64,000 nt of DNA, taken from positions 1-64,000 of the forward strand of contig JAACFE010000006.1 of NCBI GenBank assembly GCA_009937525.1. The letters are read 5' to 3'. Below, in pieces: positions 20,127 through 34,422 of the stretch. Both the position numbers and the translations under genes were made by a program. The stretch is from Gammaproteobacteria bacterium. GTDB taxonomy: Bacteria > Pseudomonadota > Gammaproteobacteria > Steroidobacterales > Woeseiaceae. Every line of letters begins with the position of its first letter. Position 1 is the stretch's first letter. The notes under the pieces are model-generated. The model saw only the letters and a list, made by a program, of their open reading frames with translations, was not told the origin of the DNA and made no database searches.

Positions 20127-24522
<4,396 letters not shown>

Positions 24523-24581
24523 CACTTTGCACCTTCGCCGGCGACGAACCTGGTCGCCGGGTGTTCTCGGAACTTGCGAAC

Positions 24582-24623
24582 ATGCTAGGTTCTGGCGCCG
24601 CGATCGGCCTTGATTCAGATCAA
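24582..24623 (-). promoter_or_regulatory. FNR/Dnr box and promoter for TonB receptor-nirS operon
   Basis: TTGAT-tcag-ATCAA at 24610-24623 is a perfect FNR/Dnr consensus palindrome. On the minus strand TAGCAT (24582-24587) lies with its centre 32 bp downstream of the box centre, the spacing of a class II FNR-type promoter (box at about -41.5). The box also lies about 98 bp ahead of the divergent regulator gene, so it may serve both. Confidence 0.85.
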
Positions 24624-24714
24624 GGACGCCGCCGGAGCGGCAACTAAACTCCGCAGTGAACACGGATCGCAGGTGACGGCACAGCCCGTCGAGGAAATAG
24701 TGGGATAGCGCGCG

Positions 24715-25446
24715 ATGAGCACGATCAACGAGTTATCCGGGGTGCTAGACTCGGTACCCATGGACGATTGTTCCGCACTGCACGAATCGCTGCGAAACCA
24801 CTACCTGTTCGCCGGCCTCGTTGCGGCTGACTTCGAGCAGCTCGCGCGGCACATTGCGGCCATGTCGCTCGAGAAGGGAGGAGTCCTGTTTCATCGCGGC
24901 GATGCAGCCGAGTACTTCTATTTCATCGACACCGGGCTGATCGAACTGAGCCTGATTGCGCCGACCGGCGACAAGAAGACACTTGAAGTCGTCGGGCCGG
25001 GCCGCACGTTCGGCGAGGCCGTGGCGTTCATGCGGAGCCACAAGTATCCAGTAAGCGCCGAGGCGCTCCAGGACTCCAGGCTATGCCGGATTCCGAACAA
25101 CACCTACGTCGAGCTGATCCGGTCGAATTCCGATGCCTCGATGCGCCTGCTCGCGGATATTTCGAGGCACCTCCATGATCTCGTCAGGGAGATCGGACAC
25201 CTGACGATCCAGAATGCACGAACGCGCCTGACGAGCTACATGATGGACCACCTTGTCGAACCGCCCGTGGACGATCAGGCAACGGCCCGCCTGGACCTTC
25301 CCCGGCATGTCATCGCGTCGCGCCTGTCCATCCAGCCGGAGACCCTGTCGCGCCTGCTGCGAAACCTGACGGATGAAGGAATCGTGTCCGTCGACGACCG
25401 GGTGGTATTCATACACAGCGTCTCGCGCCTGCGGCCCTACGACTGA
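24715..25446 (+). CDS. Crp/Fnr-family regulator, Dnr/NnrR-like
   Basis: The 243-residue protein has a cyclic-nucleotide-fold sensor domain (about 30-145: EKGGVLFHRGDAAEYFYFIDTG, GPGRTFGEAVAF), a long dimer helix and a C-terminal HTH (LPRHVIASRLSIQPETLSRLLRNL). The recognition helix contains E-x-x-S-R, the FNR-class residues that read TTGAT. It lacks the four-cysteine N-terminal cluster that binds 4Fe-4S in FNR, so it belongs with Dnr/NnrR/DNR-type NO-responsive regulators, which bind heme; that sensing mode is inferred. Two perfect TTGAT-N4-ATCAA boxes flank the gene, upstream of the nirS and norSY operons. Start ATG 24715; ATG 24760 is possible. Confidence 0.88.
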   Translation: MSTINELSGVLDSVPMDDCSALHESLRNHYLFAGLVAADFEQLARHIAAMSLEKGGVLFHRGDAAEYFYFIDTGLIELSLIAPTGDKKTLEVVGPGRTFGEAVAFMRSHKYPVSAEALQDSRLCRIPNNTYVELIRSNSDASMRLLADISRHLHDLVREIGHLTIQNARTRLTSYMMDHLVEPPVDDQATARLDLPRHVIASRLSIQPETLSRLLRNLTDEGIVSVDDRVVFIHSVSRLRPYD

Positions 25447-26015: not shown

Positions 26016-26549
26016 ATGGCAATCACACCACCTCCACAACGAATCTGGTGGAAAGAGCCGATCGCCAAGGTCGAGCTTTCCTGGATCATCATCGCCTTCG
26101 TCTGGGGCCTCGTCATGTTCTTCATGATGATCTACTGGCACGGGGCTGGCGAACAGAACCTCTCGAACGAAGCGTACAAGATTACGCCGGAAAGATTCGC
26201 CGAGAAATCGCAGGCGATGATCGACGAGTACACCGTAAGAGAGGAAAACTATTTTCCCGTTGTGCATCCGCCTGCCGGCAGCGACGTGTACCTGATCGCA
26301 CGTCTGTGGCAATGGTGGCCGATCCTCGAGCTCAAAAAAGGCGAGACGTACCGCCTGCACCTGTCATCGCTTGACTGGATGCACGGCTTCTCCCTGCAGC
26401 CCGTCAATATCAACGTGCAGGTTCACCCGGGCTACGAGATGGTCGTCACGATAAAACCGGACCAGGCGGGCGAGTTCGGCATCGTCTGTAATGAGTATTG
26501 CGGGCTCGGCCATCACTTGATGGTCGGCAAGATCTACGTCGTCGAGTAG
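26016..26549 (+). CDS. norS: CuA-containing subunit II of heme-copper NO reductase (NorS-like)
   Basis: The 177-residue protein has one membrane anchor (about residues 22-42) and a periplasmic cupredoxin domain. All CuA ligands are present: His123 (DWMHGFS), Cys158, the Glu160 backbone position, Cys162, His166 and Met169 in CNEYCGLGHHLM. Single-anchor, short subunits II occur in ba3-type enzymes and in NorS. It passes electrons from a cytochrome or cupredoxin to subunit I, encoded 12 bp downstream. Assignment as NorS rather than oxidase subunit II depends on the missing tyrosine in subunit I. Confidence 0.85.
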   Translation: MAITPPPQRIWWKEPIAKVELSWIIIAFVWGLVMFFMMIYWHGAGEQNLSNEAYKITPERFAEKSQAMIDEYTVREENYFPVVHPPAGSDVYLIARLWQWWPILELKKGETYRLHLSSLDWMHGFSLQPVNINVQVHPGYEMVVTIKPDQAGEFGIVCNEYCGLGHHLMVGKIYVVE

Positions 26550-26561
26550 GGGGTTGGAATC

Positions 26562-28256
26562 ATGGCAAAAACAACGCAATTTCGTACCTGCCCGACGACC
26601 GGACTGAAAGTCGACCTGGCCGCCGAGAAGCTCATCAAGGCGAACGCCGTCGTCGCCGTGGTGTTCCTGGCAATCGGCGGCCTCTTCGGGCTGCTTGTTG
26701 CACTGACACGCTGGCCGGCGGTGCACTTTCTGCCGGCCGACTGGTTCTACCTGGCGCTGACCGCGCATGGCTTCGACGTACTCCTCGTCTGGATTATCTT
26801 CTTCGAGATGGCCGTGCTGTACTTCGCCTCGTCCGTGCTGCTGGGCTGCCGCCTCGCCACACCGCGCTGGGCGTGGGCCGGTTTCGCGCTCATGCTGATC
26901 GGCGCAGTGGTGACGAATATCGTCGTACTTCAGGGTCAGTCGAGCGTGATGTTTACCTCCTACGTGCCGATGAAAGCCGAACCCGGTTTCTATCTGGGTA
27001 TTATCCTGTTCGCGGTCGGCGCACTGATCGGCTGTTTCGTGTTCTTCGGCACGCTTGTCGTTGCCCGGCAGGAAAAAACCTACCAGGGCTCCGTTCCGCT
27101 CGTGACATTTGGTGCCATCACGGCCGCGATCATCGCGGTGTTCACGATTGCGTCCGGTGCAATCATTCTCATTCCGACCCTGCTCTGGTCCGTCGGCCTG
27201 GTCAGTCACATAGATCCACTGGTGTACAAGACGATCTGGTGGGCCATGGGTCACTCGTCGCAGCAGATAAACGTATCGGCACACGTCGCCGTCTGGTACG
27301 CAATCGCGGCGATGGTATTGGGCGCACGGCCCATCTCCGAGAAAGTCAGCCGTATGGCATTCCTGATGTACATCCTGTTCCTGCAGCTCGCGAGCGCGCA
27401 CCATATGCTCGTGGAGCCGGGGTTCAGTTCCGAATGGAAGATCTTCAATACCAGTTACGCGATGTACCTGGCGGTTCTCGGCAGCATGATCCACGGCATG
27501 ACCGTACCGGGCTCGATCGAGGCGGCTCAGCGCGCCCGCGGGCTGACGAAGGGCCTGTTCGAGTGGCTGCGCAAAGCACCCTGGGGAAACCCGGCCTTCG
27601 CCGGCATGTTCATGTCACTGGTGTTTTTCGGTTTCATCGGCGGCATCTCCGGAGTCGTGATGGGCACCGAGCAGATCAACCTGATCATGCACAACACGTT
27701 GTACGTGCCGGGGCATTTCCACGGCACCGTTGTGGCCGGCACCACGTTGGCCTTCATGGCGATCACCTACCTGCTCGTGCCGCTGATATTCCGGCGCGAG
27801 CTCATGTTCCGCAAGCTCGCGCAGTGGCAGCCTTACCTTTTCGGTATCGGTGTCGCCGGGATATCGGTATTCATGATGGGCGCCGGAACACTGGGCGTAT
27901 CGCGTCGACACTGGGACATGACCTTCGCCGATGCGCAACTGCCGTTCGACTATCCGTCCGCCGCGTTCCTGATGATGGGTCTGAACGGGATCTTCGCCAT
28001 ACTGGCGTCGCTCGGCGGCATTCTCTTTATTGTCATCGTCGTCGGATCGGTGTTCTTCGGCAAGAAACTGGCTGAAGACGAGAAGCCGTCGTATCCGGAA
28101 ATGCCTCCGGCCGCTGCCGCGGTCGCCGAGCATGGAAGTGCCGGCACGCTGAAGATTCCCGGCACGGTAATGCTCGTGGGTATCTTCTTCGTGGCGTTTG
28201 TCCTGTATTACTTTGTCAACTGGAAATATCTGTCCGAAGTCTGGCCATTGAGCTAG
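26562..28256 (+). CDS. norY: Heme-copper subunit I lacking active-site Tyr; predicted NO reductase (NorY/sNOR-like)
   Basis: The 564-residue membrane protein has at least twelve hydrophobic helices. Low-spin heme ligands are His69 (LTAHGFDV) and a His of the HFH pair (385/387); the other HFH His binds the active-site heme. CuB ligands are His231 and the pair His280-His281 (SAHHMLVEPG). In oxygen reductases the first CuB His is followed four residues later by a cross-linked Tyr (HPEVY or HPIVY). Here the sequence is GHSSQQ, with Gln235 there, so O2 reduction by the usual mechanism is unlikely. Tyr loss, a CuA subunit and neighbouring ctaB/senC are the hallmarks of NorSY (sNOR) enzymes known from ammonia oxidisers. 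It should reduce NO to N2O. Assignment is by motif and context; activity is inferred. Confidence 0.82.
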   Translation: MAKTTQFRTCPTTGLKVDLAAEKLIKANAVVAVVFLAIGGLFGLLVALTRWPAVHFLPADWFYLALTAHGFDVLLVWIIFFEMAVLYFASSVLLGCRLATPRWAWAGFALMLIGAVVTNIVVLQGQSSVMFTSYVPMKAEPGFYLGIILFAVGALIGCFVFFGTLVVARQEKTYQGSVPLVTFGAITAAIIAVFTIASGAIILIPTLLWSVGLVSHIDPLVYKTIWWAMGHSSQQINVSAHVAVWYAIAAMVLGARPISEKVSRMAFLMYILFLQLASAHHMLVEPGFSSEWKIFNTSYAMYLAVLGSMIHGMTVPGSIEAAQRARGLTKGLFEWLRKAPWGNPAFAGMFMSLVFFGFIGGISGVVMGTEQINLIMHNTLYVPGHFHGTVVAGTTLAFMAITYLLVPLIFRRELMFRKLAQWQPYLFGIGVAGISVFMMGAGTLGVSRRHWDMTFADAQLPFDYPSAAFLMMGLNGIFAILASLGGILFIVIVVGSVFFGKKLAEDEKPSYPEMPPAAAAVAEHGSAGTLKIPGTVMLVGIFFVAFVLYYFVNWKYLSEVWPLS

Positions 28257-28276: not shown

Positions 28277-29146
28277 ATGAGCGTTGCGACACTCAAACTG
28301 ATCTACCACACGGCCAAAGTGCGGTTGGGTTTCCTGATCACGGTCTGTGCCGTGACCGGCATCGTTGTCATACCCGGGCACGGGCTCGCACCCTGGCAGG
28401 TATTCGTGCTCGGCCTGGCAACCCTGATCGCATCGTCGGCCGCGGGGGCATTCAACCAGCTGTACGAACGCGATCTCGATGTTCGAATGAAGAGGACGCG
28501 AGCCAGGCCGTTCGTGACCGGCCGATTCGTCGCAGACCTGCGCTGGTACGGTGGTATCGCACTCGCGCTCATGCTCGCGTTGCTGGCCGCCGCCGTATCC
28601 ACGAACTGGCTGGCAGCGCTGTTCGTCTTCCTGGGTGCTTTCACCTACGGCGTCGTCTACACGGTGTGGCTCAAGCGCAGGACCTGGCTGAACATCGTCG
28701 TTGGCGGATTATCGGGCAGTTTCGCAGTCCTGGCAGGCTCGGCGGCGGCTGGTGCAACCCTGTCCCCGGTAGCACTCATTCTTGCGGCCGTGCTCTTCCT
28801 TTGGACGCCACCCCATTTCTGGGCGCTCGCCTTTGCCTGCAGGGACGACTATCGCGCCGCAGGTGTGCCGATGCTACCGGTAATCGTCGGCGACGCGACC
28901 TCGACCCTGACGATACTCGCACACGCGGTTGCACTATCCGCACTTGCGTTGCTGCCATTGTGGTACGGAATGGGGTGGATCTACGGCGCCGGCGCCGTCG
29001 TCGGCGGCAGCTATTTCGTTTATGCCTGTGTCCGACTCGCGATGGCGCCCGGCCGCTCCAATGCGTGGCGCACATTCGCCGCGTCAATCGTGCAGCTCGG
29101 ACTCCTGATGCTGACCGCAATCCTGGATCGACTGTTCCTGGCCTGA
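28277..29146 (+). CDS. ctaB: Protoheme IX farnesyltransferase (heme O synthase)
   Basis: The 289-residue UbiA-family membrane prenyltransferase adds farnesyl to heme b to make heme O. The first Asp-rich motif is NQLYERDLDVRMKRTRARP, matching CtaB/CyoE NxxxDxxxD. A second polar region is FACRDDYRAAGVPMLPV. It has about nine hydrophobic helices. It lies 21 bp after norY and 4 bp before the SCO gene, so it is in the operon. Its presence implies that the reductase carries a heme o- or a-type cofactor. Confidence 0.93.
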   Translation: MSVATLKLIYHTAKVRLGFLITVCAVTGIVVIPGHGLAPWQVFVLGLATLIASSAAGAFNQLYERDLDVRMKRTRARPFVTGRFVADLRWYGGIALALMLALLAAAVSTNWLAALFVFLGAFTYGVVYTVWLKRRTWLNIVVGGLSGSFAVLAGSAAAGATLSPVALILAAVLFLWTPPHFWALAFACRDDYRAAGVPMLPVIVGDATSTLTILAHAVALSALALLPLWYGMGWIYGAGAVVGGSYFVYACVRLAMAPGRSNAWRTFAASIVQLGLLMLTAILDRLFLA

Positions 29147-29149
29147 CCG

Positions 29150-29926
29150 ATGATGCGCAGCCTGATCATCGCATGCCTCGTGCTCGTGGCGTTGACGGGC
29201 GCTGCCGAGGAATACGACAAGGACTCGGCACTGGCGGTTAGCCAGGCCGCCATCGGTACTCGCCTGCTGGACTATCGACTGCGGGATGTCCTCGGCCAGC
29301 CTTTCCAACTGCAGGAGCTCAGGGGACGGCCGCTTGTCGTCAGCATGATCTACACAAGCTGCCATCACATCTGCCCGATGATCACGCGTAATCTTGCCCG
29401 GAATGTCGAGGTTGCTCGCGAAGCCCTGGGCGAGGACGCTTTTTCTGTCGTCACTATCGGATTCGACTGGCAAGTCGATTCGCCCGAGCGCATGCGACAG
29501 TTCGCGACCGAGCAGGGCGCGAGCGGCGTCGAAGACTGGCATTTCCTGGCGGCCGACGCGTCCGTGATCGGCGCACTGAGCGCAAACCTCGGCTTCCTGT
29601 TCTTTCCCAGCGCCAAGGGTTTTGATCACCTCGTGCAGACCACGGTCGTTGACAGGAACGGGACCATTTACCGGCAACTGTACGGTGTCGAGCTGGACAC
29701 GCCGGCGTTCGTGGAGCCATTGAAAGAGCTGGTCTTCGACACGCCGCGCAGTGCCGGCCTGATTGATCACTGGGTCAGCACTTTCAAGTTGTTCTGCACG
29801 GTCTACGATCCCAACAGCGATCGCTATCGATTCGATTACTCGATATTCACGATGATCATGGTCGGTGTGCTTTGTCTCGGCTCGATTGCGACCTTCATCG
29901 TGCATGAGTGGCGCGGCGCGAGATGA
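29150..29926 (+). CDS. senC: SCO1/SenC copper chaperone for CuA assembly
   Basis: The 258-residue protein has a signal peptide, a thioredoxin fold with copper-binding CxxxC (TSCHHICPM) and the distal His in FDHLVQTTVVDRNG, as in SCO1/SenC/PrrC proteins that insert copper into CuA. Unusually, it also has a C-terminal membrane helix (MIMVGVLCLGSIATFIV). It sits just after ctaB, as in norSY-senC clusters, and its 3' end overlaps the start of the next gene. It is probably dedicated to the CuA subunit of this operon. Confidence 0.92.
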   Translation: MMRSLIIACLVLVALTGAAEEYDKDSALAVSQAAIGTRLLDYRLRDVLGQPFQLQELRGRPLVVSMIYTSCHHICPMITRNLARNVEVAREALGEDAFSVVTIGFDWQVDSPERMRQFATEQGASGVEDWHFLAADASVIGALSANLGFLFFPSAKGFDHLVQTTVVDRNGTIYRQLYGVELDTPAFVEPLKELVFDTPRSAGLIDHWVSTFKLFCTVYDPNSDRYRFDYSIFTMIMVGVLCLGSIATFIVHEWRGAR

Positions 29927-31454
29927 CCGTCCCGTGGCTTTCATAAAACGCGCGCTCTACAAGCTTTTCGGCAAAGCCGAGCGGGTCTTCGAATACGCGT
30001 TCGGTCAACGCTGCAACCCGTTTACCTGGCTCGGCTCCTTCGGCTGGTTCTTCTACTGGATCACAGCAGCCACCGGCATATACCTCTACATCTTCTTCGA
30101 TACGGGCATCGTCGATGCTTACGCATCGGTCGAGTACATGACCAACGAGCAGTGGTATGCGGCGGGTGTCATGCGGAGCCTGCATCGGTATGCTTCGGAT
30201 GCGCTCGTCATTGTCGTTGTGCTTCACCTGCTTCGCGAATTCGCCATGGATCGCCTGCGTGGCAAGCATTTCTTCGCGTGGCTGACCGGCGTACCGCTGC
30301 TGGCGTTCATCTATATCTGCGGCATCAGCGGCTACTGGCTCGTGTGGGACAAGCTGGCCCAGTACATTGCAGTGGCCACCAGCGAATGGCTCGATGCATT
30401 GCCGCTCTTCGCCGAGCCGATCGCTAACAATTTTCTCGACAGCACGACGCTCGGCGGCCGCTTCTTCACGCTCATGGTGCTCATCCACATATTCGCGCCG
30501 CTGTTCATGCTGTTGCTCATGTGGGTTCATGTCCAGCGCCACTCCAACGCGCGGGTCAATCCACCGCGCTCACTCGCAATAGGTACGCTCGTCGCCATGG
30601 TTGCGCTGTCGCTGTTCTACCCGGCCGTCAGCCAGGGGCCAGCAGACCTCGACGTCGTGCCGGCGACCGTGAATCTCGACTGGTTCTACCTGGCGGGATA
30701 CCCGTTACTCGACGTCGTGCCCGGTGGCCAGCTGTGGCTCTATCTCATCGGCGGCTTCGCGATGCTCGCCGTCCTGCCGTGGCTGCCGCCTGAGGCGAAG
30801 ACACCGGAAGCAATGGTCAACCTGGCGAACTGCAACGGCTGCTCGCGCTGCTTCGACGATTGCCCGTTCAGCGCGCTCACCATGGTGCCGCGCTCCGACG
30901 GCAAGCCGTACGAACTCGAGCCGGTAGTCGATCCCAACAACTGCACGAGTTGCGGTGTATGCGCAGGGTCCTGTCCGACCTCGACACCATTTCGCCGCGC
31001 AAAGCCGATCGAGCCGGGCATCGAGCTGCCACACAGGACGATCGGTGCACTGCGGGAGCAGATCATGGCGCCGTGGGCGCCGCCAAACGGGAGTCCACGC
31101 GTCCTGGTCTTTTCCTGCGACCACAGTAATTGCGAACGGCTGAGCGGCGACGATATACGCGTGGTCCAGTTGCCCTGTGTCGGCATGCTGCCGCCGTCTT
31201 TCGTGGACTTCGCGCTGGCGAGAAACTTCGCCGATGGCGTAATGATCGCCGGGTGCGCGGAGAACGACTGTTTTCACCGGCTCGGTAACGAATGGACAGC
31301 TCAGCGGATGCAGCGGCAGCGGGATCCCCGGCTACGGCAACGGGTACCCGAGGAGCGATTGCAGATGGCGTGGCTGCCCGCGCTGGCAGGCCGTCGACGG
31401 GAGGCAATAGTCGCAGCATTCAGAAAACAGCTGAAGGGGTCGAGCGATGGCTAA
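29904..31454 (+). CDS. Fusion: cytochrome b + two 4Fe-4S clusters + MvhD-like domain
   Basis: About residues 20-225 are a four-helix cytochrome b (bc1/b6 N-terminal type) with heme His in MRSLHRYASDALVIVVVLHLLREF and the later HIFAPLF/WVHVQRH pair. About 230-300 add further helices. Next are two 4Fe-4S motifs, CNGCSRCFDDCPF and CTSCGVCAGSCPT. The last about 130 residues match the MvhD/hydrogenase-delta domain (VFSCDHSNC, LPCVGML, GCAENDCFHRLGN). MvhD normally relays electrons in heterodisulfide-reductase complexes. Here the protein may link quinol or a cytoplasmic donor to NO or nitrite reduction; that is inference. The start may be ATG 29904 (overlapping senC) or GTG 29934. It is an operon member. 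Confidence 0.85.
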   Translation: MSGAARDDRPVAFIKRALYKLFGKAERVFEYAFGQRCNPFTWLGSFGWFFYWITAATGIYLYIFFDTGIVDAYASVEYMTNEQWYAAGVMRSLHRYASDALVIVVVLHLLREFAMDRLRGKHFFAWLTGVPLLAFIYICGISGYWLVWDKLAQYIAVATSEWLDALPLFAEPIANNFLDSTTLGGRFFTLMVLIHIFAPLFMLLLMWVHVQRHSNARVNPPRSLAIGTLVAMVALSLFYPAVSQGPADLDVVPATVNLDWFYLAGYPLLDVVPGGQLWLYLIGGFAMLAVLPWLPPEAKTPEAMVNLANCNGCSRCFDDCPFSALTMVPRSDGKPYELEPVVDPNNCTSCGVCAGSCPTSTPFRRAKPIEPGIELPHRTIGALREQIMAPWAPPNGSPRVLVFSCDHSNCERLSGDDIRVVQLPCVGMLPPSFVDFALARNFADGVMIAGCAENDCFHRLGNEWTAQRMQRQRDPRLRQRVPEERLQMAWLPALAGRRREAIVAAFRKQLKGSSDG

Positions 31455-31950
31455 CGTGTACGCGGTGACACTGCAGGCGCTTGCTTACCTTGGTCTTATG
31501 GCAGTCATTGCTTACCTGTCGGCATCGCCCGCGTACAACTACGCGAGTTCCGATGTGGCGGCCATCAAGCTGTCGCTGAGCCATCCCGCGGACCGGGTGA
31601 AACCCTGTGTTCGGCTGACGCCCGAGCAGATCGCCGAGCTGGCGCCGAATATGCGACTGGCCGAGCAGTGCGAACGTGAGCGGCTGCCGCTGACGGTCAG
31701 GCTCGAAATCGACGGCAAGTTGCTGGCACAGATCGAGGCTCTGCCGTCCGGACTGTGGAATGACGGGCCCGCATCCGTTTACGAGCGGTTCGAGGTCGAA
31801 CCCGGCAGGCATGCGATCACCGCAAAGCTGCGCCAGTCGGCCCGGCCTGACGGCTGGGACTTCACGCACGCCGAAGATGTAACGCTTGAAGCAGGTCGCT
31901 ATCTTACGATCACGTTCCGGGCAGAAGCAGGAGGATTCAGATTTCGATGA
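31447..31950 (+). CDS. Membrane-anchored protein of unknown function in NO reductase operon
   Basis: The 167-residue product has one N-terminal membrane helix (about residues 5-27) and then an exported beta-rich domain (LPLTVRLEIDGKLL, ERFEVEPGRHAITAKLRQS, GRYLTITFRAE) with two cysteines near residues 54 and 75. It overlaps the upstream gene by 8 bp and the hemerythrin gene by 4 bp, so translation is coupled. I do not recognise the family. The position argues for a role in assembly or electron transfer of this operon's complex. Confidence 0.75.
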   Translation: MANVYAVTLQALAYLGLMAVIAYLSASPAYNYASSDVAAIKLSLSHPADRVKPCVRLTPEQIAELAPNMRLAEQCERERLPLTVRLEIDGKLLAQIEALPSGLWNDGPASVYERFEVEPGRHAITAKLRQSARPDGWDFTHAEDVTLEAGRYLTITFRAEAGGFRFR

Positions 31951-32336
31951 AACTGCTCGGTTGGAAACCGGAATTCAGTGTCGGGAATGCTGCAGTGGAC
32001 CACGAGCATCGCGAGCTGATCGATCTGATCAACAACGTCCATGCTGGAATCAGCGAGGGAGCTGGCCGGGACCAGCTGGTTTCCGGACTCGGGGAAATCT
32101 ATGCACAGATAGCGGCGCACTTTGCGCTGGAGGAAAAAATGATGCGCAATGCCGATTACGTCGGATATGCGCCACATAAAGACGACCATGAGTCACTGCT
32201 CGACCAGTTGACGGAGATCATCGACGCCGTCGAACTGGAGGGCAGATACGACGAGCACGCATTGTCGTCGGTGCTAAACGCCTGGTTCTCGGAGCACTTT
32301 CGTACTCACGACGCAAAATTACACGGAAGGCTTTGA
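31947..32336 (+). CDS. Bacteriohemerythrin
   Basis: The 129-residue protein has the diiron four-helix signature: His21 in VDHEHRELIDLIN, HFALEEKMM, HKDDHESLL and the terminal HFRTHDAKL. Bacteriohemerythrins bind O2 or NO and can store, deliver or detoxify them. In an operon with an NO reductase and Dnr control, NO binding in the cytoplasm is a reasonable inference. The ATG overlaps the previous stop (ATGA). Confidence 0.92.
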   Translation: MKLLGWKPEFSVGNAAVDHEHRELIDLINNVHAGISEGAGRDQLVSGLGEIYAQIAAHFALEEKMMRNADYVGYAPHKDDHESLLDQLTEIIDAVELEGRYDEHALSSVLNAWFSEHFRTHDAKLHGRL

Positions 32337-32423: not shown

Positions 32424-32933
32424 GTGTCAAGAAACGGTATTGGGGAACACACCGGACGGCGAGGCATGATGTCCATTGGCCTTCCGGCCGTCCTCGTCGG
32501 CATCCTGCTGGGCGTCGGCGGTTATACGTTCCTGTATGCAAAGGGATTCTCGTACATGAGCGACGATCCCGAAGTGTGCATCAACTGTCACATCATGCAG
32601 CCGCAGTACGACTCGTGGCAGAAGTCGAGCCACCACGCAGTCGCTGTCTGTGTCGACTGCCACCTGCCACACGACTTCCTCGGCAAATACATCGCGAAGG
32701 CTGACAACGGCTGGCATCATTCGAAGGGCTTCACGCTGCAGAATTTCCACGAGCCGATCATGATCAAGGGCCCGAATTCACGCATTCTCCAGAACAACTG
32801 CCTCGCCTGTCATGAAGACATGGTGCACGAGCTCGTTGTCGGCGTGAACGGACCTGAAGAGGAGGTCCGCTGCGTGCACTGCCATGTCACGGTGGGCCAC
32901 GGCGAGACCACCGGGCTGGGCGGACCGGAATAA
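32424..32933 (+). CDS. nrfH: NrfH-type tetraheme cytochrome c, quinol dehydrogenase
   Basis: The 169-residue NapC/NirT-family protein has one N-terminal membrane helix (about residues 17-38) and four CxxCH motifs (CINCH, CVDCH, CLACH, CVHCH). NrfH oxidises menaquinol and passes electrons to NrfA. It starts at GTG 32424 behind AGGGAG. A TATACT -10-like hexamer (32393-32398) lies 26 bp upstream, so nrfHA may have its own promoter, but I see no FNR box there. nrfA follows after 28 bp. Confidence 0.92.
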
Positions 32934-32961
32934 ACATTTAATAAAACCAGGATTCGGGCAA

Positions 32962-34422
32962 ATGAAACGAAATCTACGCGGATGGAGCACGACCAGCATA
33001 TTGGCACTTGTGGTAATCGTCGCGATCGCCACGGCAAGCGTCACGGCGCTACTTGTCAACATGGTCGAGAGACAGACCGAGGCGAAGCAGACCTTCGTTC
33101 GCCTGGCCGAGGTGACCGAAGATACGACGGATCCCGCGGAGTGGGGCATCAACTTCCCGAAGCAGTACGACTCGTACCTGCGCACGGCCGAGGCGACTCG
33201 CACGCGCTTCGGCGGTCACGGCGGCAGCGAAGCACTGCCCGAGCAGAAGATCGAGCGCGACCCGTGGCTACAGCGCATGTTCCGCGGCTACGCGTTCTCC
33301 ATCGACTACCGCGACCGCCGCGGGCACGCCTACATGCTCGTCGACCAGGAGCAGACGGAGCGGCAGACCAAGCCGCAGACCGGTTCATGCCTGCACTGCC
33401 ACGCATCGATCATGCCGTTGTACCGTGAACTCGGTGACGGCGACGCCATGGCCGGATTCGCGGAGAGTTACAAGTACTCCTACAAGGACCTGAACGCGAA
33501 GCTGCATGACCTGGGGCACGGGCACCCCGTCTCGTGCGTGGACTGTCACGACCCGGACACGATGGCGCTCCGCGTGACGCGCCCCGGCTTCATCTACGGC
33601 ATCCAGGCGCTGGCCGAGGGTGACGCCGAGGTTCCGCACCTGCCCACGATGCAGAAGTGGCGGGAAGGTTCGCGCGCCGAACCCTACGACCCGAACGTCG
33701 ACGCGAGCCGCACGGAGATGCGCAGTTATGTCTGCGCGCAATGCCATGTCGAGTACTACTGCGCCAACAAGATGCCGCTGACCTTCCCTTGGGGTGACGG
33801 ACTTACCGCGGACAACGTCGAGAAGTTCTGGGACGAGACCACCTTCGACGACGGCCAGCGTTTCTTCGACTACAAGCATGCGGAGAGCGGCGCCGAGATC
33901 CTGAAGGCACAGCATCCGGAATTCGAGCTCTGGAGCCAGGGCATCCACGCGCGAAGCGGCGTCGCCTGTGCCGACTGTCACATGCCGTACCAGCGCGAGG
34001 GCGCGAGCAAGGTGTCGGATCACTGGGTGCGCAGCCCGCTACTCAACGTGAACCGCGCGTGCCAGACCTGTCACCGATTCTCCGAGGACGAGATCCTGGC
34101 GCGGGTCGATGCGATCCAGCAGCGCAATTTCGACCTGCTGCAGCGGGGCGGTGCGGCGCTCATGGACCTGCTCGATGCGGTCCAGAAAGCGAAGGAAGAG
34201 GGCGCCACCGACGAGCAGCTGAAGCCGGCACTCGAGCTGCAGCGCAAGGCGCAATGGCGTCTCGACTTCATCGCGGCCGAGAACTCGATGGGCTTCCATG
34301 CGCCGCAGGAGGCGGCGCGCGTGCTGGGCGAAGCTGCCGACTATGCCCGTCAGGGCCAGGTTGCGGCCATGAGCTGGCGCGAGGGAGGCGCTACACGGGT
34401 CGCGCAGCAGACGGAGGAATAG
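32962..34422 (+). CDS. nrfA: Pentaheme ammonia-forming cytochrome c nitrite reductase, CxxCH active-site variant
   Basis: It reduces nitrite to ammonium with six electrons in the periplasm. The 486-residue protein has an uncleaved-type N-terminal helix (about 12-33) and five heme motifs: CLHCH (143-147), CVDCH (192-196), CAQCH (258-262, followed by VEYYC), CADCH (336-340) and CQTCH (367-371, followed by RFSEDE). The first, normally CxxCK with Lys as the active-site iron ligand, is CxxCH here, a variant known in some bacteria. Such enzymes do not need the special NrfEFG heme lyase, and none is seen. ATG 32962 gives the signal-anchor start; the frame is open upstream into nrfH. Confidence 0.92.

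Follow-up and report, generated by a model that had tools for sequence, protein, structure and literature searches.

The cytochrome b protein encoded in the 64,000-nucleotide stretch of DNA analysed here (the window) belongs to a real and widely conserved module that is dedicated to the eNOR type of NO reductase, of which it is a near-obligate genomic partner. Our tentative reading, to which we give a little less than an even chance, is that this cytochrome b, of the bc1/b6 type but Rieske-less, acts with the small protein orf167 as a transmembrane electron wire dedicated to eNOR.

The open reading frame of the cytochrome is single and intact (516 aa counted from the ATG at 29904; Table 1). 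Pfam places Cytochrome_B at residues 40-210 (E 2.6e-17), a Fer4 dicluster at 303-360 and FlpD at 413-511 (E 7e-16; 58.8 bits, above the cut-off of 22.3). The heme-b histidines (94, 108, 195 and 209), eight ferredoxin cysteines and four FlpD cysteines (405, 425, 451 and 456) are all invariant in 16 homologues; in a wider set (n=66) the last two FlpD cysteines are kept in at least 90% and all the other ligands are invariant. We infer the heme and cluster content of the protein from sequence. The first-pass annotation had read this gene as one chain of cytochrome b, two 4Fe-4S clusters and MvhD, which is borne out by the single frame, the Pfam matches and the conserved ligands. Whether separate genes had been joined by sequencing error was also checked, and this is ruled out by the many full-length homologues, which are single reading frames of 45-72% identity in many independent genomes. 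Contigs of the same genus place the host near Woeseiaceae MAGs. The GTG at 29934 is more likely to be the true start than the ATG; it corresponds to V11, where the homologues begin as MA(F/L)xKR, and lies 8 nt past the SCO stop.

Table 1. Features of the eNOR operon and its upstream region in the window
Feature	Position	Strand	Remarks
Exact FNR/Anr/Dnr box	24610..24623		between receptor/nirS genes and Crp/Fnr gene
Crp/Fnr-family regulator	24715..25446	+	assigned from translation; homologues at same place in related loci
Exact FNR/Anr/Dnr box TTGATgtagATCAA	25474..25487		upstream of eNOR operon
s1, small conserved TM protein, 61 aa	25559..25744	+	precedes norS
s2, small conserved TM protein, 58 aa	25825..26001	+	before norS in 56 of the best 80 of at least 542 loci
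NorS, CuA (cox2-like) subunit	26016..26549	+	CuA ligands kept in 63 homologues
NorY, catalytic heme-copper subunit, eNOR type	26562..28256	+	Gln235; CuB His 231/280/281
CtaB/CyoE heme o synthase	28277..29146	+	TIGR01473, 242.8 bits, cut-off 210.3
SCO1/SenC copper chaperone	29150..29926	+	in 76 of the best 80 of at least 542 loci
Cytochrome b (bc1/b6 type, 6 TM) + 2x[4Fe-4S] + FlpD/MvhD fusion protein, 516 aa	29904..31454	+	likely true start GTG 29934
orf167, one TM helix and periplasmic Ig-like beta-sandwich	31447..31950	+	conserved Cys54/Cys75; start overlaps cytochrome stop
Bacteriohemerythrin	31947..32336	+	near module in 75 of the best 80 of at least 542 loci

Scanning the genomes of 84,980 species gave at least 542 confirmed relatives of the cytochrome. 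Neighbourhoods were counted in the best 80 of these loci, taking the best hit per reading frame, a procedure in which overlapping frames can hide some genes. In this set the eNOR genes adjoin the cytochrome in all 72 loci that are not cut by a contig end, and every one of the 8 loci lacking NorY is cut by a contig end beside the module. The usual order is norS - norY - (ctaB) - SCO - cytb-Fd-FlpD - orf167 - hemerythrin. Matches to the window proteins among the best 80 of at least 542 loci were most frequent for SCO (76), hemerythrin (75), orf167 (74), NorY (72) and NorS (63), followed by CtaB (48), NirS (31), NrfH (3) and NrfA (0). In the window the start of the hemerythrin gene overlaps the stop of orf167, and the hemerythrin carries a full set of conserved di-iron ligands. 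The isolate Defluviimonas sp. SAOS-178_SWC has the same gene cassette on a plasmid, with no more than generic protein annotations; the cytochrome there is WP_347309654.1. The NO reductase genes that had been noticed beside the cytochrome are real neighbours, and the linkage holds in the 72 uncut loci. The first-pass annotation had the module feed NO or nitrite reduction, and the first half of this stands through the tie to eNOR. The second half found no support when co-occurrence with nrfHA was checked: the two are adjacent only in this window, and with NrfA in 0 of the best 80 of at least 542 loci a tie to nrfHA is rejected and one to nitrite ammonification is unsupported. The window's own nrfH-nrfA genes (32424-34422) lie directly 3' of the eNOR operon.

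Whole genomes give the same picture. Among 398 Pseudomonadota genomes the cytochrome occurs in 34 and eNOR in 30, with both in 29, the cytochrome only in 5, eNOR only in 1 and neither in 363. The contig of the eNOR-only genome (G128) ends 34 bases past the SCO frame, and of the five cytochrome-only genomes four have a completeness below 85%, while the fifth has the gene on a 5.3 kb contig. Within family f20 (201 genomes) both are present in the same 23 and neither in 178, and carriers of a single gene number zero for each. The Fisher p values are 8e-38 for the 398 Pseudomonadota and 1e-30 for f20, and should be read knowing that genomes related to one another do not count as independent. Several genomes of family f63 have the cytochrome-orf167 pair near nirS, away from the eNOR genes, and keep both; the tie between cytochrome and eNOR is therefore not mere operon hitchhiking. 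The correlation of pairwise distances between cytochrome and NorY (r 0.81, 51 loci) is as expected for co-inheritance.

The identity of the NO reductase itself can be read from its active site. Aligned to ba3 oxidase, NorY conserves the CuB and heme histidines and has Gln235 at the position of the cross-linked tyrosine; Q235, H231, H280 and H281 are invariant in 64 NorY homologues. Gln at this position is the mark of eNOR and Asn that of sNOR (table in PMC8756737, after Hemp and Gennis 2008), so NorY is of the eNOR type by its active-site residue, and its NO reductase activity is predicted on that basis. With Gln rather than Asn in 64 of 64 homologues, sNOR is ruled out, and the earlier label norSY should be taken to mean subunits II and I of eNOR. 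This partner enzyme combines the Gln at the Tyr position with CuB histidines and a CuA subunit, and the cytochrome b module is extra to its two catalytic subunits. In databases eNOR is annotated as an ordinary oxidase, for example as 'cbb3-type subunit I'. A separate observation concerns a second heme-copper-family protein of 450-480 aa beside the eNOR cluster (L112:3127-4650, L113:11490-12866 and L136-L142), which also occurs in 6 of the best 80 of at least 542 loci (for example L065:9592-11016). It keeps the heme His and one CuB histidine, the other two CuB histidines are missing, and the eNOR Gln is replaced by Phe or Tyr. No hemerythrin was found where this protein occurs in the f20 and f55 loci that were read.

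The membrane part resembles bc1 cytochrome b and cytochrome b6 in its four bis-His heme ligands, its helices A-F and the position of a Qo-region motif. The predicted structure of the L049 orthologue matches bc1 cytochrome b with Z 20-23 over 252-262 residues (rmsd 2.5-4.2 A), and the bc1-like fold stops after helix F. By alignment the heme histidines of the window protein coincide with those of the host's own bc1 cytochrome b. Unlike bc1 and b6, the module lacks helices G and H and has (L/F)DW(F/Y) in place of PEWY, with the Asp and Trp invariant in 66 homologues; the host's own bc1 cytochrome b has PVWY there. Unlike bc1, it has an added Fe-S arm and no Rieske or cytochrome c1 in its operon. 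No Rieske or cytochrome c1/f gene was seen among the conserved neighbours in the best 80 of at least 542 loci, and there is no cytochrome c gene within the core operon. We considered the module as a replacement for bc1, and this is ruled out by cytochrome c1, the bc1 marker, which is encoded elsewhere in 54 of 57 carrier genomes. The chain runs from six TM helices to the Fe-S arm and then, in fusions, to one further helix and the orf167 domain. As six TM helices precede the arm, it would lie on the cytoplasmic side.

Such fusions also bear on the small protein itself. In four loci (L013, L045, L049 and L050) orf167 is joined in frame to the cytochrome, and because of this natural fusion it is very probably a subunit of the cytochrome module, an assignment that is new here. 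Besides its two cysteines orf167 has one conserved His. Its structure is predicted as an Ig-like sandwich with pLDDT 94, and its sequence has no match in PDB or Pfam. In the model of the fused protein the orf167 part is of low confidence because fused and single orf167 rows are misaligned in the co-alignment. As a stand-in for a Rieske protein or cupredoxin it was rejected, since the best match among the Foldseek candidates is the HGSNAT domain (Z 9), which suggests no redox function.

The cytoplasmic arm appears to be exchangeable. A second cytochrome b, with Fer2, FAD_binding_6 and NAD_binding_1 rather than ferredoxin-FlpD, is present in 22 of the 23 eNOR-carrying f20 genomes; the domains of this arm are those found in G425, and the other f20 copies are whole-length homologues. 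It is encoded within the same gene cluster in all 8 of the f20 loci read. This second copy, with a predicted [2Fe-2S]/FAD/NAD(P)H-reductase arm, is new here. The f55 genomes carry a tandem duplication of the cytochrome-FlpD gene. The arm swap of f20 and the tandem copies of f55 suggest that the cytochrome b forms a dimer whose cytoplasmic arms can be interchanged.

The nearest known counterpart of the FlpD arm is the ferredoxin-MvhD tail at the C-terminus of HdrA2. Residues 302-511 of the cytochrome are colinear with HdrA2 571-769 and all four FlpD cysteines are kept, at a score of 78 bits against a cut-off of 1100. In contrast to HdrA2 the module has no HdrA FAD core and is membrane-bound, and its host genome, which was searched, has no HdrA; nor does it encode a further FlpD protein besides the cytochrome. 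HdrA-type flavin bifurcation is therefore unlikely in the host. HdrA-like proteins are present in 25 of 57 carrier genomes and absent from 32, so HdrA is not an obligate partner, and the search for an HdrA-type flavoprotein that the first-pass annotation had proposed came back empty for the host. What stands of the membrane complex it proposed is a quinone-type cytochrome b linked to cytoplasmic Fe-S and tied to NO reduction by operon and co-occurrence. In genomes of alphaproteobacterial type, among them many of the 25 HdrA-positive eNOR genomes, HdrA-like genes come as pairs encoding about 420 and 740 aa (for example G104:C9:41607-45064); the larger protein reaches the HdrA2 C-terminus, and the pair is sometimes on the eNOR contig. 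For the membrane part the best NCBIfam match is ExtP/ExtQ (83.9 bits, below the equivalog cut-off of 290), b-type cytochromes of selenite and tellurite reduction operons whose model has no Fe-S/FlpD arm. A domain-architecture table (PMC8756737) names a Chloroflexota protein, RME88945.1, for which it gives the same three domains as in the window cytochrome: cytochrome b6, DMSOR-beta (Fe-S) and FlpD. A literature search found no description of such a complex besides this entry; the 2024 PNAS eNOR paper was outside its scope, and an earlier description is possible.

Anatomy and genomics lend good support to the role of electron wire, and its direction, donor and acceptor are our suggestions. In this proposal the cytochrome, probably as a dimer, would have its bc1-type N-side outlet joined to the cytoplasmic Fe-S arm. 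Electrons from a cytoplasmic carrier, either NAD(P)H via a reductase or ferredoxin, would enter at the Fe-S/FlpD arm, cross its pair of [4Fe-4S] clusters and reach heme bH before bL. Their exit may be periplasmic, either into quinone at a putatively retained Qo-like site or in the direction of the CuA subunit, and eNOR would then be fed not solely via complex I and bc1. Flow from cytoplasm to membrane is our first choice because the swapped arm is of an NAD(P)H-oxidising reductase type, and this direction is the weakest step of the proposal. Counting against the wire, the core operon has no cytochrome c or Rieske gene, cytochrome c might by itself suffice to feed eNOR, given cytochrome c1 in 54 of 57 carriers, and a path of this kind from NADH to NO would yield little conserved energy.

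The opposite direction deserves weighing, as the bc1 fold, the four heme histidines and the conserved (L/F)DW(F/Y) motif could also belong to an electron-splitting quinol oxidase. Its Qo-like site would oxidise quinol and send one electron to the CuA of eNOR and the other through bL, bH and the arm to NAD(P)+ or ferredoxin, with CuA or another centre replacing Rieske and NO reduction driving the formation of low-potential reductant. The Fe-S arm sits at the N-side quinone site of bc1, a CuA subunit is in the same operon and the reductase-arm paralogue could reduce NAD(P)+. However, neither a Rieske gene nor an evident partner of high potential belongs to the core operon, direct contact with NorS would have to be presumed, and known bc1 hemes b are too positive for NAD+ reduction; we think this scheme unlikely. 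A quinol-splitting complex in which the energy of NO reduction at eNOR pushes quinol electrons via heme b and the Fe-S/FlpD or FNR arm to NAD(P)+ or ferredoxin seems to us rather unlikely. The constant partnership with eNOR and a quinone-site motif that may be retained would also suit a simpler quinol:eNOR oxidoreductase, with the Fe-S/FlpD arm being regulatory or a minor side branch. The arm looks catalytic though, because its Fe-S/FlpD cysteines are conserved and the paralogue has an NAD(P)H-reductase in its place, and bc1 is already there, which makes this rather doubtful as well.

The remaining alternatives look to the neighbouring genes. With SCO and CtaB in the operon and two conserved cysteines and one conserved His in orf167, the cytochrome and orf167 could supply the periplasm with electrons for reducing copper or thiols during the assembly of the CuA/CuB of eNOR by SCO. 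This is improbable, as the orf167 model is an Ig-like sandwich whose matches suggest no redox function and the assembly of other CuA/CuB enzymes needs no such module. The cytochrome could instead feed the adjacent cytoplasmic hemerythrin, in NO or O2 handling, keeping its di-iron site reduced, with eNOR a separate, co-regulated enzyme. The frequency of hemerythrin near the module and its complete ligand set fit this, but none was found beside it in those loci of f20 or f55 that were read, which do keep the cytochrome, and we regard it as very improbable.

Returning to the wire, eNOR is a widespread NO reductase, hence a source of N2O, and the electron supply of the proteobacterial enzyme is not established in the literature examined. 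A near-obligate partner that has arms in the cytoplasm, one natural version being an NAD(P)H reductase, makes the question of how eNOR is fed testable. The wire, if true, would clearly exemplify the rewiring of complex III's cytochrome b to Fe-S chemistry in the cytoplasm. The cytochrome gene is also a good marker by which to recognise eNOR carriers whose present annotation shows ordinary oxidases.

The regulation of the operon can be approached from its upstream region, where the two exact FNR boxes are the only ones in the whole 64 kb window (0.03 expected); they support anaerobic or NO-linked control as a prediction. A cytochrome cd1 nitrite reductase (20127-22298, minus strand) has two cytochrome c domains ahead of the d1 domain in Pfam, a plan resembling C1-C2-NirS of PMC8756737. 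Between it and the Crp/Fnr gene a long reading frame (22303-24663, minus strand) encodes a putative TonB-type receptor, judged from its translation, and this frame is kept beside nirS in about 12 of the best 80 of at least 542 loci.
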